Below, one piece after another: positions 18,641 to 62,884 of a stretch of DNA of 64,000 nt. Numbering within the stretch: the stretch's first letter is position 1; the number at the start of each line of letters is the position of its first letter. Under the pieces are notes generated by a model. It saw only the letters and a program-made list of their open reading frames with translations, ran no database searches and was not told where the DNA came from. Position numbers and translations under genes: made by a program. This DNA comes from Halobaculum magnesiiphilum (lineage in GTDB: Archaea > Halobacteriota > Halobacteria > Halobacteriales > Haloferacaceae), in NCBI RefSeq assembly GCF_019823105.1, contig NZ_CP081958.1:1302001-1366000 (forward strand), read 5' to 3'.

Positions 18641-19051
18641 GGGCGAAGCCCGAACGACCGTCTCGGCCACCGGCGGAGCGGTCTCGTGCCGCTCCGCCCA
18701 GAACATAGCGAGACGGGAGTAGCGAGGTCGAGCGAAGCGAGACCTCGTTGCGAACGGCGAACGGAGTGAGCCGTGAGCGGAGCAACGCAAGACCTCGTTG
18801 CGAACAGCGAGAAGACGAACCGGCGAAAGCGTCGGTGGCAGCGGATCGGGCGGTGGCAGCGGATCGGGCGGTGGCACGGCGTTCCGTTGGTTCGGCATGG
18901 AGGGCCGATCAGTCGGGAACCGATTTGTTCGGGGGCATTCAACCCTACTGGGGAGGCACGTATTACTTCACCGTCCGGTGATCTTCCCACTGTTCGGTCG
19001 GCAGTCCGGTAAGCGGAACAAACATGGGTCGGCCGTTCGTTCTTCCGGTGA
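18641..19051. repeat. Repeat-rich 411-base gap after moaB
   Basis: No convincing gene. It holds a 10+7+10 hairpin (18672-18698), a repeat copy (18723-18785, see separate entry), a second GACCTCGTTGCGAAC copy (18791-18805), two perfect 18-base tandem units (18834-18851, 18852-18869) plus seven bases of a third, and near the next gene a TATA-like TATTAC (18961) with a palindrome TCACCG-TC-CGGTGA (18968-18981). The half site TCCGGTGA recurs just before the ATG at 19052. Confidence 0.75.
18723..18785 (+). repeat. Dispersed 63-base repeat, copy 1
   Basis: Begins with a 7-11-7 hairpin (CGAGGTC ... GACCTCG, 18723-18747) and continues GTTGCGAACGGCGAACGGAG and TGAGCCGTGAGC. Closely matched by 61111-61172 and, on the minus strand, by part of 58551-58593. 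Short junk ORFs reading SLRSPFA-type peptides come from this repeat. Confidence 0.75.
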
Positions 19052-38862: not shown

Positions 38863-40116
38863 ATGGCCGACACCTTCCACGACACCGACGGGCTCGTCGC
38901 GGCGCTGTCGGACGCCGACTTCGACCGCCCGCCCGCGCTCGTCGCCAACGCGCACATCACCGGCGTGAGCGTCGCCCGCGCGCTCTCGGCCCACGGCGTG
39001 CCCGTGATCGCGCTGGATCGCACCGACTCGGGGCTCGCGCCGCCCTCCGACGCCGTCGACTACGCCGGGCAGGTCACCTACCCGCTGGACGACGCCGACG
39101 GCTTCCGAGCGGACGTGGAGCGCGTCGCCGACGCCCTCGAGTTCGAGCCGGTCGCGTTCGCCTGTATGGACGAGTGGGTCCGCGGGTTCGCCGAGACCGA
39201 GCCCGCGGGCGTCCGCCTGCCGTTCTCGGATCTCGCCGGCGTCGAGCGCGTGCTCGACAAGGCGAACCTCTACGCGCTGTGTGAGGACCTCGGGGTCCCG
39301 TACCCCGAGACGTACGAGGTCGGCGAACACGGGATCGACGAGATCGTCGAGACGCTGGCGTTCCCGTTCGTCGTCAAGCCCGCGCACAAGCGGAAGTTCG
39401 AGGAGGCGTTCGGGACGAACGTCATCGAGGTCGCCGACCGCGGGGAGTTCGAGGAGGTCGTCGCGGGGGCCCGCGAGCACGACGCGACCGTGCTCGCCCA
39501 GGAGAAGGTGAACACCGAGGCGGGCCGGGACACCTCGCTCGCGAGCTACATGCCGCCCGAGTCGGCCGACCGCGACCCCCTCGCGGTCGTCGGCAACGCC
39601 GCGGTGCGGTACCCCGAGTTCGGCACCTCCTGTCTAGTCGAGCGCGTGGAGGAGCCGTCCGTCCGCGAGCACGCCCTCGCGGTGCTGGAGGAGACCGGGT
39701 ATCACGGCATCAGCGAATCGGAGTTCGTCTACGACGCCGACCGCGCACAGTACGTCCTGCTCGACGTGAACACGCGGCCGTGGAAGTGGATCTCGATGCC
39801 CGTCGCCGCCGGCGCGAACCTCCCGATGGCCGCCTACGCCGACGCCGTCGACGGCGTCGAGTACGAGGCCGACGCGGCCGGCGGCGGGCCCCGCGACGCG
39901 CGGTGGGTGTACCTCCCGGACTACGTCCAGCGGTGTCTCACCGACGCGGCGTTCTGGGACGTGCTCTCCGAGGACGACTGGGCGAGCCTCGTCTCCGGCG
40001 ACTTCGAGCGCGAGGGCGACCTGACGACCGGGATCTACCGCCCGAGCGACCCCGCCCCCGCGGTGAAGTACCTGACCGGGGAGTTCACCGACCGGGAGTA
40101 CTACTGCTCCTGTTGA
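38863..40116 (+). CDS. ATP-grasp ligase
   Basis: A 417-residue enzyme of the carboxylate-amine/thiol ligase type. After a Rossmann-like N-terminal domain (LVANAHITGVSVARALSAHG), the ATP-grasp part shows FPFVVKPAHKRKFEEAFGT (nucleotide lysine), AQEKVN and the metal-binding VLLDVNTRPWKW near residue 300. It ends in YYCSC. Related haloarchaeal ligases join amino acids or polyamines to carboxylates; the product here is unknown. Confidence 0.88.
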   Translation: MADTFHDTDGLVAALSDADFDRPPALVANAHITGVSVARALSAHGVPVIALDRTDSGLAPPSDAVDYAGQVTYPLDDADGFRADVERVADALEFEPVAFACMDEWVRGFAETEPAGVRLPFSDLAGVERVLDKANLYALCEDLGVPYPETYEVGEHGIDEIVETLAFPFVVKPAHKRKFEEAFGTNVIEVADRGEFEEVVAGAREHDATVLAQEKVNTEAGRDTSLASYMPPESADRDPLAVVGNAAVRYPEFGTSCLVERVEEPSVREHALAVLEETGYHGISESEFVYDADRAQYVLLDVNTRPWKWISMPVAAGANLPMAAYADAVDGVEYEADAAGGGPRDARWVYLPDYVQRCLTDAAFWDVLSEDDWASLVSGDFEREGDLTTGIYRPSDPAPAVKYLTGEFTDREYYCSC

Positions 40117-40135
40117 GGCCGCGAAGACGGTGACT

Positions 40136-40187
40136 CCGCGGTGGCGCGTGCCGGCGGACCTCAGTGTCCGCCGGATGCGCGCGAGGG
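40136..40187 (+). repeat. Dispersed hairpin repeat, copy at 40 kb
   Basis: 52 bases matching 61042-61093 at 47 positions. The core is CCGGCGGAC-CTCAGT-GTCCGCCGG (40151-40174, 9+6+9), enlarged by an outer GCGCGT/GCGCGC stem. One stem pair (40156/40169) is G-C here and C-G in the other copy. Confidence 0.82.
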
Positions 40188-40194
40188 ATAAGCG

Positions 40195-40223
40195 ACCCGG
40201 GCGCGGCGTCGCCGCGCCCGGGT
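40195..40223. repeat. 29-base triloop palindrome
   Basis: ACCCGGGCGCGGC-GTC-GCCGCGCCCGGGT: perfect 13-base arms and a three-base loop, directly after the 52-base repeat. The 61 kb copy has an unrelated 63-base repeat (starting with its own hairpin) in this position. Confidence 0.85.
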
Positions 40224-40324
40224 GAGCGAATCGGCTGGGGAGGTCGTGGCTGCGGTGCGGTTACGGCGGGCGAGATCCGAAACGGGACCGCGGATCGATT
40301 CCGCCGATCGGTCGGTGACGCGGG

Positions 40325-59668: not shown

Positions 59669-60690
59669 CAGCGGATCGCCTCCACGACCTCCTCGGCGCC
59701 GAAGCGGATCAGGTCCGTCGCGGGCGCGTCGATCCCGGCGGCGAACTCCTCGACGGCGGCCTCGGCGGCCGCGTCGTCGTCGAGGTCGGCGGTGTTGAGC
59801 GCGCCGGCGACGACCTCGGTCCCGTGGACGGGCGCCGCGAGCGACTCGTAGAGGTCGACGTACTCCGGCAGCGGCGGGAGGTCGAACGACTCGTAGCCGT
59901 GGATCGCCTCCCGGCCGGCGGCGTGGCACATGACGAGTTCGTCCGCCATCGCGCCGTGGAGGATGCCGCAGGTGACCGCCGAGTAGGCGGGGTGGACGAT
60001 GCTCCCCTGCCCCTCGACGACGAGCAGGTCGTGGTCGTCGCCCTTCTCCAGGATCATCTCCTCGACGGCGCCGGCGGTGAAGTCCGAGACGACGCGGTCG
60101 ACGGGGTTGCCCCAGCCCTCGATCATGATCCCCGTCTGGCCCGTCGGGATCACGCAGGCGTCGATGCCGACCTCCCTCGCGGCGTCGACGATCTCCATCG
60201 TCGCGGTCATCTTGCCGACCGAGCAGTCGGTGCCGACGGTGAGCACCACGTCGGCGTCGACCTCGTCCGATCGCCCCTCGGCGACGCCGATGTCGCGGTC
60301 CGGGCGCCGCACGTCCCACAGCTCGACGCCGTGTTCGGCCGCCAGCGCGGCGAGGTCGTCGTCGTCGTTCAGGAAGTAGTGGAGCCCCGAGACCACGTCG
60401 CAGCCGGCCTCGATGGCCGCCTCCACGTCCGGCCGCCACGACTCGTCGAAGCCGCCGCCGATCGGCGCGATCCCGATGACGAGCGCGTCCACGTCGTCGG
60501 GCACGTCCGCGAAGGACGCGACGACGGGCGCGTCGGCCACGCCGGGGAGGTGGTCGGCGACGCGCTCGCCGGGTCGGTCGCGGTCGAGGACGGCGGCGAC
60601 CTCGTAGTCGGCGTAGCGGATGATGCCGTTGGCGGTCTTCGAGCGGTCGGGGAACTTCCCGTGCGCGAGGACGGCGACGCGATCGTACAT
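59668..60690 (-). CDS. dgcN: DUF1611-family P-loop protein, DgcN-type N-acetyltransferase
   Basis: A 340-residue protein with an N-terminal Rossmann-like part (YDRVAVLAHGKFPDRSKTANG) and a P-loop GTDCSVGK (about 153-160) in the C-terminal DUF1611 domain. In marine bacteria and halophilic archaea this family works with DgcA in D-glutamate use, with DgcN adding the acetyl group. It is the first gene of the two-gene unit. The upstream 832 bases are repeat-rich. Confidence 0.87.
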   Translation of the reverse strand: MYDRVAVLAHGKFPDRSKTANGIIRYADYEVAAVLDRDRPGERVADHLPGVADAPVVASFADVPDDVDALVIGIAPIGGGFDESWRPDVEAAIEAGCDVVSGLHYFLNDDDDLAALAAEHGVELWDVRRPDRDIGVAEGRSDEVDADVVLTVGTDCSVGKMTATMEIVDAAREVGIDACVIPTGQTGIMIEGWGNPVDRVVSDFTAGAVEEMILEKGDDHDLLVVEGQGSIVHPAYSAVTCGILHGAMADELVMCHAAGREAIHGYESFDLPPLPEYVDLYESLAAPVHGTEVVAGALNTADLDDDAAAEAAVEEFAAGIDAPATDLIRFGAEEVVEAIR

Positions 60691-60814
60691 GTGCGGAGGT
60701 GCGTGAGCGTGGGTGATAAATCGGACTCACGCGGTCGGATCGGCCGGATACTTCGACTGTGAGATCGGTGTGTACAGGTGATCGACAGTTTCGACAGCGA
60801 CGACCGTGGTGTCC

Positions 60815-60861
60815 ACCGCGAAAGCCCCCGCGGCTTTCGACTCCCGCGACTCGCTGCGCGC
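60815..60861 (+). repeat. Left terminal inverted repeat
   Basis: ACCGCGAAAGCCCCC (60815-60829), 16 variable bases, then GCGACTCGCTGCGCGC (60846-60861). Inverted partner at 61346-61392 with 14/15 and 16/16 matches in the two blocks and the same 16-base spacer length. Confidence 0.85.
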
Positions 60862-60898
60862 GCTCGGTCGCTCCGCTCTCTCGCGTGCTTGCGTCGTC

Positions 60899-60948
60899 AT
60901 CAGAACGCGTAGCGTTCTGATTGGCTCACGAGAGCTCCGCTCTCGTGA
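60899..60948. repeat. Twin 23-base triloop palindromes
   Basis: ATCAGAACGC-GTA-GCGTTCTGAT (60899-60921) and TCACGAGAGC-TCC-GCTCTCGTGA (60926-60948), each with ten-base perfect arms and a three-base loop, four bases apart. Same architecture as the twin palindromes in trpE. Confidence 0.9.
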
Positions 60949-60972
60949 ACGTCGAGGTTCGTCGATAGCCGC

Positions 60973-60992
60973 GGCCCCTTTCAGTCCCGCCC
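60973..60992 (+). repeat. Inner inverted repeat, left arm
   Basis: GGCCCCTTTCAGTCCCGCCC, matched 19 of 20 in inverted orientation by 61264-61283. Confidence 0.85.
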
Positions 60993-61041
60993 GGCGGTCG
61001 GACGGGCCGAGCGATGGATCCCCTCGCTCGGTGTGCACGAA

Positions 61042-61093
61042 CCGCGGTGGCGCGCGCCGGCCGACCTCCGTGTCGGCCGGGTGCGCGCGAGGG
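61042..61093 (+). repeat. Dispersed hairpin repeat, copy at 61 kb
   Basis: 52 bases matching 40136-40187 at 47 positions. Core stem CCGGCCGAC-CTCCGT-GTCGGCCGG (61057-61080). The pair 61062/61075 is C-G; the same pair is G-C in the 40 kb copy. Confidence 0.82.
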
Positions 61094-61110
61094 GCGAGTG
61101 AGGAGCGGGA

Positions 61111-61172
61111 CGAGGTCGAACGGAGTGAGGCCTCGGTGCGAACGGCGAACATAGTGAGCCGTGAGCCGAGCG
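61111..61172 (+). repeat. Dispersed 63-base repeat, copy 2
   Basis: CGAGGTC-N11-GGCCTCG hairpin (61111-61135) followed by GTGCGAACGGCGAACATAGT and GAGCCGTGAGC. Same layout as 18723-18785, including an 11-base loop. Confidence 0.75.
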
Positions 61173-61221
61173 ACGAACGAGTCGGTTGGGGAGGCTCACG
61201 TGAACGGAGTGAACGTGAGTT

Positions 61222-61241
61222 CGTCGGAGCTTGCTCCGACG
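61222..61241. repeat. 20-base palindrome
   Basis: CGTCGGAGC-TT-GCTCCGACG with perfect nine-base arms, next to an imperfect palindrome CTCACGT-N11-ACGTGAG (about 61195-61219). The 40 kb copy of the surrounding element lacks both. Confidence 0.8.
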
Positions 61242-61263
61242 TAAGTGAGGCTGCGGTGCCGTC

Positions 61264-61283
61264 GGGTGGGACTGAAAGGGGCC
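61264..61283 (-). repeat. Inner inverted repeat, right arm
   Basis: GGGTGGGACTGAAAGGGGCC, the inverted partner of 60973-60992. Confidence 0.85.
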
Positions 61284-61345
61284 GGCGTGCTCGCGGAGCG
61301 AGACGACGCTAGCACTGCAAGGAGCGAACGGAGTGAGCGAGTGAA

Positions 61346-61392
61346 GCGCGCAGCGAGTCGCAGCCCGCGAGCACGCCGGGGGCTTTCGTGGT
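61346..61392 (-). repeat. Right terminal inverted repeat
   Basis: GCGCGCAGCGAGTCGC (61346-61361), 16 bases, then GGGGGCTTTCGTGGT (61378-61392). Partner of 60815-60861. Confidence 0.85.
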
Positions 61393-61522
61393 CGTGTTCT
61401 CCGTCGAAGCGACGACGACACCGCAACCAACGCCAGCGGAAACCCCTCCGAACGATCCGAATACAGGCACAGCCGGCCGATTTCACCGCCCCTTACCCGG
61501 CTCGCGAACCAGAGACCACGTA

Positions 61523-62884
61523 ATGAGCGACGGCATCCACCTCAACCTCTTCACGATGAACTCCGTGGAGCACGTCTCCCCCGGCTCCTGGCAACACCCG
61601 GCGGATCGCTCTGCCGAGTACACCGACAGGGAGTACTGGACCGACGTTGCTCGGACCGCCGAGCGCGGCGGCTTCGCCGCGGTGTTCTTCGCCGACGTGC
61701 GCGGCATCTACGACGTGTACGGCGGCGACCGCGAGACGGCCATCGAGCGCGCCGTCCAGACGCCCTCGAACGACCCCGGGTACCTCGTGCCCGCGATGGC
61801 GGAGGTGACCGACTCGCTCGGCTTCGCGGTCACGAAGTCGACGACCTACACGCACCCGTACCAGTTGGCGCGGGAGCTCTCCACGCTCGATCACCTCACC
61901 GACGGCCGGGTCGCGTTCAACGTCGTTACCTCCTACCTCGAATCGGCGGCGGCGAACCTCGGGCTCGACGAGCGCATGGACAAGGGGACCAGATACGACC
62001 GCGCCGACGAGTTCATGGACGTGTGCTACGCGCTGTGGGAAGAGTCGTGGGACGACGAAGCCGTCGTCCGCGACCGCGAGTCGGGCGTCTTCACCGACCC
62101 CGCGGGGGTTCACGAGATCGACCACGAGGGCGAGTTCTTCGACGTGCCCGGCCCCCACGGCTGCGAGCCGTCGCCCCAGCGCACGCCCGTGATCTTCCAG
62201 GCGGGCTCCTCCGACCGAGGACGCGACTTCGCCGCCGCCAACTCGGAGGCGGTGTTCTGCTCGCAGCCGACCGAGCGCGGCGTCCGCGAGTACATGGACG
62301 ACCTGCGCGAGCGGGCCGCCGCGCTCGGACGCGACCCCGACGAGCTGGCGTTCTTCCCGGGCGTCGTCCCCGTCGTCGCCGAGGCCGAGGAGGCGGCAGA
62401 GGCGAAGTACGAGCGCCTGCTGGAGACGGTCGACGTGGAGGCGACGCTCGCGCTGCTGTCGGGGTTCCTCGACATGGACCTCTCCGAGCTCGACCCGGAT
62501 CAGAAGATCGAACACATCGAGACCGACGCGATCCAGGGGACGATGAACGCGTTCACGAAGTCCGACCCCGACCGCGAGTGGACGGTCCGCGAGGTGGCGC
62601 AGTTCTCCGGGCTCGGGACCACCTCGCCGGTCGTCGTCGGCACCCCCGAGCAGGTGGCCGACGAACTGCAGTACTGGCACGAGGAGGTCGGCGTCGACGG
62701 CTTCAACGTGAAGGAGGTGCTGCGCACCGGGAGCCTCGACGACGTTGTCGACCTCCTCGTGCCCGAGTTGCGCGCACGCGACCTGCTCGCGGAGCCGACC
62801 CCCGGCGAGACCCTCCGGGAGCGACTGCTGGGCGACGGTCCCCGGCTGTCGGCGACCCACCCCGCGCGGCAGGAGCTAAAATGA
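61523..62884 (+). CDS. LLM-class flavin-dependent monooxygenase, NtaA/SnaA/DszA-type
   Basis: A 453-residue TIM-barrel flavoprotein that would oxidise a substrate using reduced FMN from a separate reductase. Family features are WTDVARTAERGGFAAVFFAD, NVVTSYLESAAANLG (FMN contacts) and VIFQAGSSDRGRDFAA. Start ATG 61523; the longer frame enters repeat DNA. The usual partner flavin reductase is not adjacent and the substrate is unknown. Confidence 0.9.
   Translation: MSDGIHLNLFTMNSVEHVSPGSWQHPADRSAEYTDREYWTDVARTAERGGFAAVFFADVRGIYDVYGGDRETAIERAVQTPSNDPGYLVPAMAEVTDSLGFAVTKSTTYTHPYQLARELSTLDHLTDGRVAFNVVTSYLESAAANLGLDERMDKGTRYDRADEFMDVCYALWEESWDDEAVVRDRESGVFTDPAGVHEIDHEGEFFDVPGPHGCEPSPQRTPVIFQAGSSDRGRDFAAANSEAVFCSQPTERGVREYMDDLRERAAALGRDPDELAFFPGVVPVVAEAEEAAEAKYERLLETVDVEATLALLSGFLDMDLSELDPDQKIEHIETDAIQGTMNAFTKSDPDREWTVREVAQFSGLGTTSPVVVGTPEQVADELQYWHEEVGVDGFNVKEVLRTGSLDDVVDLLVPELRARDLLAEPTPGETLRERLLGDGPRLSATHPARQELK

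Follow-up and report, generated by a model that had tools for sequence, protein, structure and literature searches.

A family of structured intergenic repeats in Halobacteriales, described from two hairpin copies in Halobaculum magnesiiphilum

Two hairpin copies in one genomic window

The window considered here is a stretch of 64,000 nucleotides of Halobaculum magnesiiphilum (contig NZ_CP081958.1, positions 1,302,001 to 1,366,000; 71% GC), in which a 52-base hairpin occurs twice on the plus strand, at 40136..40187 (copy 1) and 61042..61093 (copy 2). As defined by the match between the copies and by covariation in the family, this module has a 6-bp outer stem, a 9-bp inner stem, and the hexaloop CTCNGT. 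The identity of 47 out of 52 bases reported by the first-pass annotation was reconfirmed, and both copies adopt the same predicted fold (-33.5 and -35.5 kcal/mol). Their differences (copy 1/copy 2) are 40149 T/C, 40156 G/C, 40163 A/C, 40169 C/G, and 40175 A/G; compensated stem pairs account for four of these five, and the remaining one, 40163, falls in the loop. The annotation had correctly stated that 40156/40169, being G-C in copy 1 and C-G in copy 2, keeps its pairing, but it counted this as the one compensated pair and overlooked a second, 40149/40175 (U-A vs C-G). Stem exchange by inversion, which it had also suggested, is not needed for the single pair; inversion does occur at the level of modules, as in the sister genome (G007), where the central part of copy 2 runs in the opposite orientation relative to the outward 3' domains at either end. 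The match between the two copies is not due to chance, since the same genome (G000) carries many further members of the family: a DNA search with 40100-40300 retrieved the hairpin region at 15 additional places (E<=1.2e-6), and a covariance model of the 5' part of the element (R1) found at least 25 copies.

In both cases, the element is larger than first described. Copy 1, flanked by convergent genes, extends to about 40287 (40139..40287, plus strand; R1 match G000:C1:1342139-1342287, 95.7 bits, model positions 1-142), and comprises the 5' hairpin, a mid domain, and the decayed start of a 3' domain. The mid-domain hairpin (40187..40232, plus strand) is closed by GAU/AUC and consists here of a 13-bp GC-rich stem-loop. 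It is followed by the block GGYTGGGGAGG (40233..40243, plus strand), near-invariant in a 13-copy alignment, and by a decayed remnant of GGGYGGGACTGAAAGGGGC (40268..40286, plus strand), with the remaining 3' domain absent from this copy on comparison of the sequence in G000 and G007. Searching the window with the model of the 3' domain (R2) gave no match near 40 kb.

Copy 2 (60808-61399) is flanked by divergent genes and carries a 3' domain at both ends, each pointing outwards to one of these genes. The left one, inverted (60808..60992, minus strand; R2 match, 55.9 bits), faces the gene starting at 60690 (minus strand) and includes, with one mismatch, the 19-mer of the database searches described below (60974-60992). 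Next comes a second type of 5' module, GGTCGGACGGGCCGAGCG...GTGTGCACGAACCGCGG (60993..61041, plus strand), a block also present beside other copies, and then the 52-base hairpin itself (R1 match 61045-61282). The mid domain (61094..61183, plus strand) is lengthened by hairpins that contain tandem G.A pairs and GNA loops, including a GA-GNA-GA motif at 61116, and precedes the conserved block GGTTGGGGAGG (61184..61194, plus strand), recognised in the 13-copy alignment. The downstream resumption of similarity that had been noticed between the copies (TCGG-TTGGGGAGG and GCTGCGGTG) was borne out, and the "different internal inserts" around which it was said to occur correspond to inserted hairpins at 61195..61242 (plus strand) in copy 2, with a GA-GNA-GA motif at 61200. 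The right 3' domain (61264..61399, plus strand; R2 match, 87.7 bits) faces the gene starting at 61523 (plus strand).

Two other features of the window deserve a mention. Copy 2 contains, inside its left 3' domain (60905-60953), a small double palindrome, ATCAGAACGCGTAGCGTTCTGATTGGCTCACGAGAGC...GCTCTCGTGAAC. At a different site this unit occurs in G000 (L345), with GTC repeats on its flanks, and is lacking from the corresponding place in G006 (L408), so that it has the appearance of a very small insertion in its own right. At 18700-18800, intergenic hairpins are built from the same tandem G.A and GNA steps (GAGGTC-GA-GC-GAA-GC-GA-GACCTC and ACGGC-GA-AC-GGA-GT-GA-GCCGT), without the conserved modules of the family.

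Architecture of the family

The reported hairpin forms the 5' module of an element, about 250-350 nt long, that lies between genes in many copies and whose modules follow a fixed order: the 52-base hairpin with its CTCNGT loop, the mid domain, GGYTGGGGAGG, a GC-rich variable linker, GGGYGGGACT, and the 3' domain. The 5' module comes in alternative forms, either the 52-base hairpin plus the mid hairpin or a shorter type. Throughout the family, the mid domain consists of a GAU/AUC closure around a variable hairpin, and these closing pairs (helix 3) covary among copies. The 3' module is a 127-nt rod with a hairpin spanning about 105 nt, formed successively by GGGTGGGACT, GAAAG-GGG, a 13-bp stem of free sequence, GA-rich internal loops, a GNA triloop, the complementary stem arm (stem'), and GGG-CTTTC. 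Most of its internal loops consist of tandem G.A steps or variants close to them, and GNA is frequent as the apical loop. Head-to-head paired units with outward inverted 3' domains also occur.

In the 3' domain, GGGYGGGACTGAAAGGGG...GGGGG places four runs of at least three G around the hairpin base, which, judging from the sequence, might give rise to a quadruplex-duplex hybrid at potassium concentrations in the molar range. The block GGGTGGGACTGAAAG is present in all copies; GGGTGGGACTGAAAG / GTGGGACTGAAAG shows a possible resemblance to the 3' portion of the type I-B CRISPR repeats of haloarchaea (GTGGGATTGAAGC), which may be coincidental.

Conservation of the fold on one strand

Covariance modelling, the check that had been proposed for the two initial copies, revealed many covarying pairs in both the 5' and the 3' domains, and the suggested selection on a folded form is supported: the 5' hairpin and the base of the mid domain keep 93.2% of their pairs in 77 further copies. 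These 5' modules (77 R1 matches) contain 210 double-change cells, against 60±10 after shuffling (0/500) and no more than 26 when the structure is slid, and every pair of the inner stem of the 5' hairpin covaries. For the 3' domain, twelve gap-free sequences define a 35-pair structure in which 95.7% of the cells are paired and 24 pairs show two-sided changes, with a covariation score of 0.594 vs 0.197 for shuffled alignments and at most 0.117 for slid structures. R2 was built from these twelve domains, and some of their copies recur in both of the larger sets retrieved with it, which comprise 107 copies (733 double-change cells vs 196±13 shuffled) and 106 other copies (733 vs 213±13), with at most 120 such cells for slid structures. 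Alignments derived from a model are biased toward the structure of that model, whereas the gap-free set (A3) is free of that bias.

In the 13-bp stem, 107 copies show 101 distinct 5' arms and yet 98.3% pairing; its length stays at 13-14 bp even though the arms are unrelated between copies. Furthermore, the conservation is strand-specific. G.U outnumbers A.C by 124:29 over all pairs and by 50:6 within the stem, and the forward strand is predicted to be more stable than its complement in 80 out of 81 3' domains and in all 70 R1 regions. Both observations indicate that the fold of one strand is kept, either as RNA or as single-stranded DNA. The paired pattern NN-GA-NN-GNA-NN-GA-NN was observed 57 times, where shuffles predict 0.2, and does not occur at all on the complementary strand.

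Such covariation might also arise with no selection on the fold, through template switching between arms plus gene conversion of whole hairpins among copies. Between G000 and G007, the identity of orthologous copies is either about 98% or just 62-78%, as conversion of whole arms predicts, and near-identical copies exist within genomes. However, template switching would be blind to the strand, contrary to the excess of G.U over A.C, and would erase mismatches, while the tandem G.A steps and GNA loops keep constant positions and are confined to one strand (57 vs 0); nor does it fit a stem held at constant length with unrelated arms. Simple arm-to-arm templating is thus disfavoured by the G.U excess and by the conserved mismatched internal loops, and we consider this explanation as a whole improbable.

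Distribution among haloarchaea

R2 matches are found in 41 of 53 Halobacteriales genomes and in none of 241 other genomes of the phylum. Among 60 relatives, R1 is present in 33/60 and R2 in 41/60. Copy number ranges from 0 to about 100 per genome, the counts of the multi-genome searches being lower bounds: R1 has no match in one congener (G001) and 100 in G025, and the minimum for R2 in a congener is 2 copies. The exact 19-mer GGGTGGGACTGAAAGGGGC occurs in at least 120 stretches; among the matches listed, 80/80 records are haloarchaeal by title, from genera that include Haloarcula, Natrinema, Halorussus, Haladaptatus, Natronococcus, and Halobaculum. Dozens of haloarchaeal plasmids carry it, nearly always without annotation. 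A viral origin was also considered and was rejected, since no sequence of IMG/VR contains the exact 19-mer.

No family of Rfam 15 matches the elements, even at permissive E-values; there were no Rfam matches in the window, and those elsewhere in the loci were only tRNA genes. Searches of open-access papers yielded no description of the element either, and the repeat family is apparently undescribed so far.

Placement relative to genes and a possible RNA role

Only 3 of 210 placed R2 copies overlap a predicted gene, compared with 81% if copies are placed at random in part of these loci; genes were called by our own codon-usage method, which recovers the expected long genes of the window. In the four annotated plasmid regions examined, the element lies between genes as well. 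No recurrent gene or transposase accompanies the copies in the loci examined, where the neighbours are varied and mostly housekeeping, and the idea of a companion gene was dropped for this reason.

With regard to orientation, copies 1 and 2 had suggested a rule by which the 3' domain marks gene starts and the 5' hairpin gene ends, which the full set does not uphold: single copies between tandem genes lie 49 with vs 26 against transcription (p=0.011), and 40 vs 24 when each gene family is counted once (p=0.06). An earlier count of 30 vs 6 came from partial, hand-picked loci and is not relied on. The preference is therefore a weak bias, and this lean toward the direction of transcription gives a hint of a role at the transcript level.

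This leads to the main rival of the DNA-level reading developed below, namely a cis-acting RNA, transcribed in 3' UTRs or long leaders, that would serve termination, processing, mRNA stability, or gene insulation, with selection acting on the RNA fold. A strand-specific fold that tolerates G.U and not A.C and is more stable on the forward strand would suit such a role, as would the orientation bias and the spacing from genes: copies begin tens of nt past stop codons, and where the downstream gene is co-directed, its start codon lies a median of 106 nt beyond the 3' end (quartiles 87-164). Nevertheless, 26 of the 75 single copies between tandem genes face against transcription, close relatives lack a copy at the same site, and by inspection there is neither a T-tract after the hairpin nor a promoter-like AT-rich stretch inside. 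On balance, a cis-acting RNA seems rather unlikely.

Turnover between relatives

The site of copy 1 is occupied in G000, G007, and G002, the element being absent from the other congeners, and the site of copy 2 is occupied in 6 out of 11 genomes, with different arms in each. Comparison of orthologous regions of G000 and G007 disclosed two sites with the hairpin in one genome and GGGTGGGACT|TTCGCGG in the other. At one of the two, G006 is also filled and G007 is empty, so the allele of G007 reads as a loss. The joint GGGACT|TTCG is shared by about nine element-associated sites, and these hairpin-less alleles at one shared joint support turnover at the DNA level. Further copies have collapsed to short stems, from which it follows that the hairpin-less alleles may partly or wholly represent ordinary hairpin deletion. 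An insertion into a pre-existing target, GGGTGGGACTTTCG, was tried as an explanation and rejected, given that no more than 10 empty sites occur in 60 genomes, not all of them associated with the element, and that a congener is filled at one of them.

The hairpin-less alleles join exactly at CT/CT, which is the dinucleotide cut by bacterial TnpA-REP beside its REPs (PMC8266576). A REP/IS200-type element moved by a Y1 (HUH) transposase, cutting after the CT that flanks the hairpin at each end, would account for this joint, as well as for the strand-specific imperfect hairpin, the head-to-head pairs, and the fact that no target duplication was seen; the shared joint could also be ordinary slippage across a CT-flanked hairpin, which would yield the same junction. 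Mobilisation by a Y1/IS200 (RAYT) enzyme, which the joint would predict, was rejected because the cognate Pfam domain Y1_Tnp (PF01797) is absent from six element-rich genomes (G015, G022, G025, and G059, each carrying 50 or more copies, and also G010 and G032). Y1_Tnp shows no positive correlation with copy number (rho -0.22, p 0.13), and the REP tag GTAG or CGTC was not found at the hairpin foot in the aligned copies, where the foot is GGGACT-GAAAG ... CTTTCG. We regard this mechanism as very improbable.

Sequence is also copied between sites. The nearest neighbour of 42/83 copies lies within the same genome, compared with 3.7 expected, and one pair of G024 copies, located at different sites, has only 155 bp in common, the flanks being unrelated; this shows ectopic copying, by transposition or gene conversion. 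With one genome per species, no clean pre-insertion site of a new insertion was seen, so that the data fit dispersal as well as ectopic gene conversion. Some sites are apparently common to several genera, such as those beside cupin and RidA genes, which would be slow for an active mobile element.

Two regions stand out in these comparisons. A low-GC (57%) island of G024 (C2:2676000-2735999, L295-L297), rich in small regulator-like and nucleotidyltransferase-like genes, holds six of the few 3' domains of that genome, some of them 96-97% identical at different sites. In G007, within C1:333000-337000 (L354), a 1.7-kb insert carries an element together with a membrane-protein-like frame where G000 (L352) has 46 bp.

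A model for the repeat family

Since the letters of the stem vary freely while pairing is kept, some component of the cell presumably reads the fold. The explanation we favour, with about even confidence, is that these elements are dispersed non-coding intergenic repeats found across Halobacteriales, an archaeal counterpart of REP/BIME repeats that spreads at the DNA level and whose folded strand is read by a factor. Being presumably non-autonomous, they would spread or be homogenised by copying at the DNA level, and the fold would be exposed while single-stranded, during replication, in a transcription bubble, or in repair. A host or transposon factor may then recognise the single-strand fold, reading its shape (the 13-bp stem, the tandem G.A steps, the GNA loop, and the GGG/GGG loop) rather than the sequence of the stem. 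A more specific proposal, which we put forward tentatively as a possibility, is an undescribed, Halobacteriales-specific class of mobile or domesticated structured nucleic acid, recognised solely through the shape of one folded strand by a non-Y1 enzyme, excised at CT/CT, and spread to intergenic sites beside genes.

Comparison with known systems

The nearest parallel in function is found in the REP/BIME/REPIN repeats associated with TnpA-REP (RAYT). Like these, the haloarchaeal repeats have many intergenic copies per genome, an imperfect strand-specific hairpin, head-to-head pairs, a patchy occurrence among close relatives, and CT dinucleotides at the hairpin base. However, the haloarchaeal 3' hairpin measures about 105-127 nt and the 5' hairpin 52 nt, whereas REPs have 20-40 nt, and the stem sequence of the haloarchaeal repeat is free, with strong compensatory change. 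With MITEs, the comparison rests on the paired units with outward inverted 3' domains, there being no clean site at which a target duplication could be scored.

Among haloarchaeal repeats, the PATEs and SMRs of Haloquadratum walsbyi are transposase-free elements with palindromes, no target duplication, and nested insertions; PATEs share their ends with IS605-type transposons, and homogeneous PATE copies are alike in sequence (PMC3119063). Our elements resemble them as transposase-free haloarchaeal repeats with palindromes. Contrary to PATEs, no recurrent transposase gene lies beside the elements in the loci examined, and it is mainly the structure that is conserved, not the sequence; as for an IS605 link, Y1_Tnp genes are missing from many carrier genomes.

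BOX and ERIC are modular, intergenic, foldable, and non-autonomous bacterial repeats. They would share these four features with the haloarchaeal family, which differs in its archaeal host, its modules and sequence, and its tandem G.A rod.

Finally, the degree of covariation is typical of a curated RNA family of Rfam. An order of model archaea harbours an element of Rfam-grade covariation with up to about 100 copies per genome, with no Rfam match and unannotated in nearly all plasmid records. The family shows that dispersed DNA repeats can undergo extensive compensatory change in archaea, a domain in which little is known of REP-like systems, and it offers a natural set of variants with which to look for the factor reading the fold.
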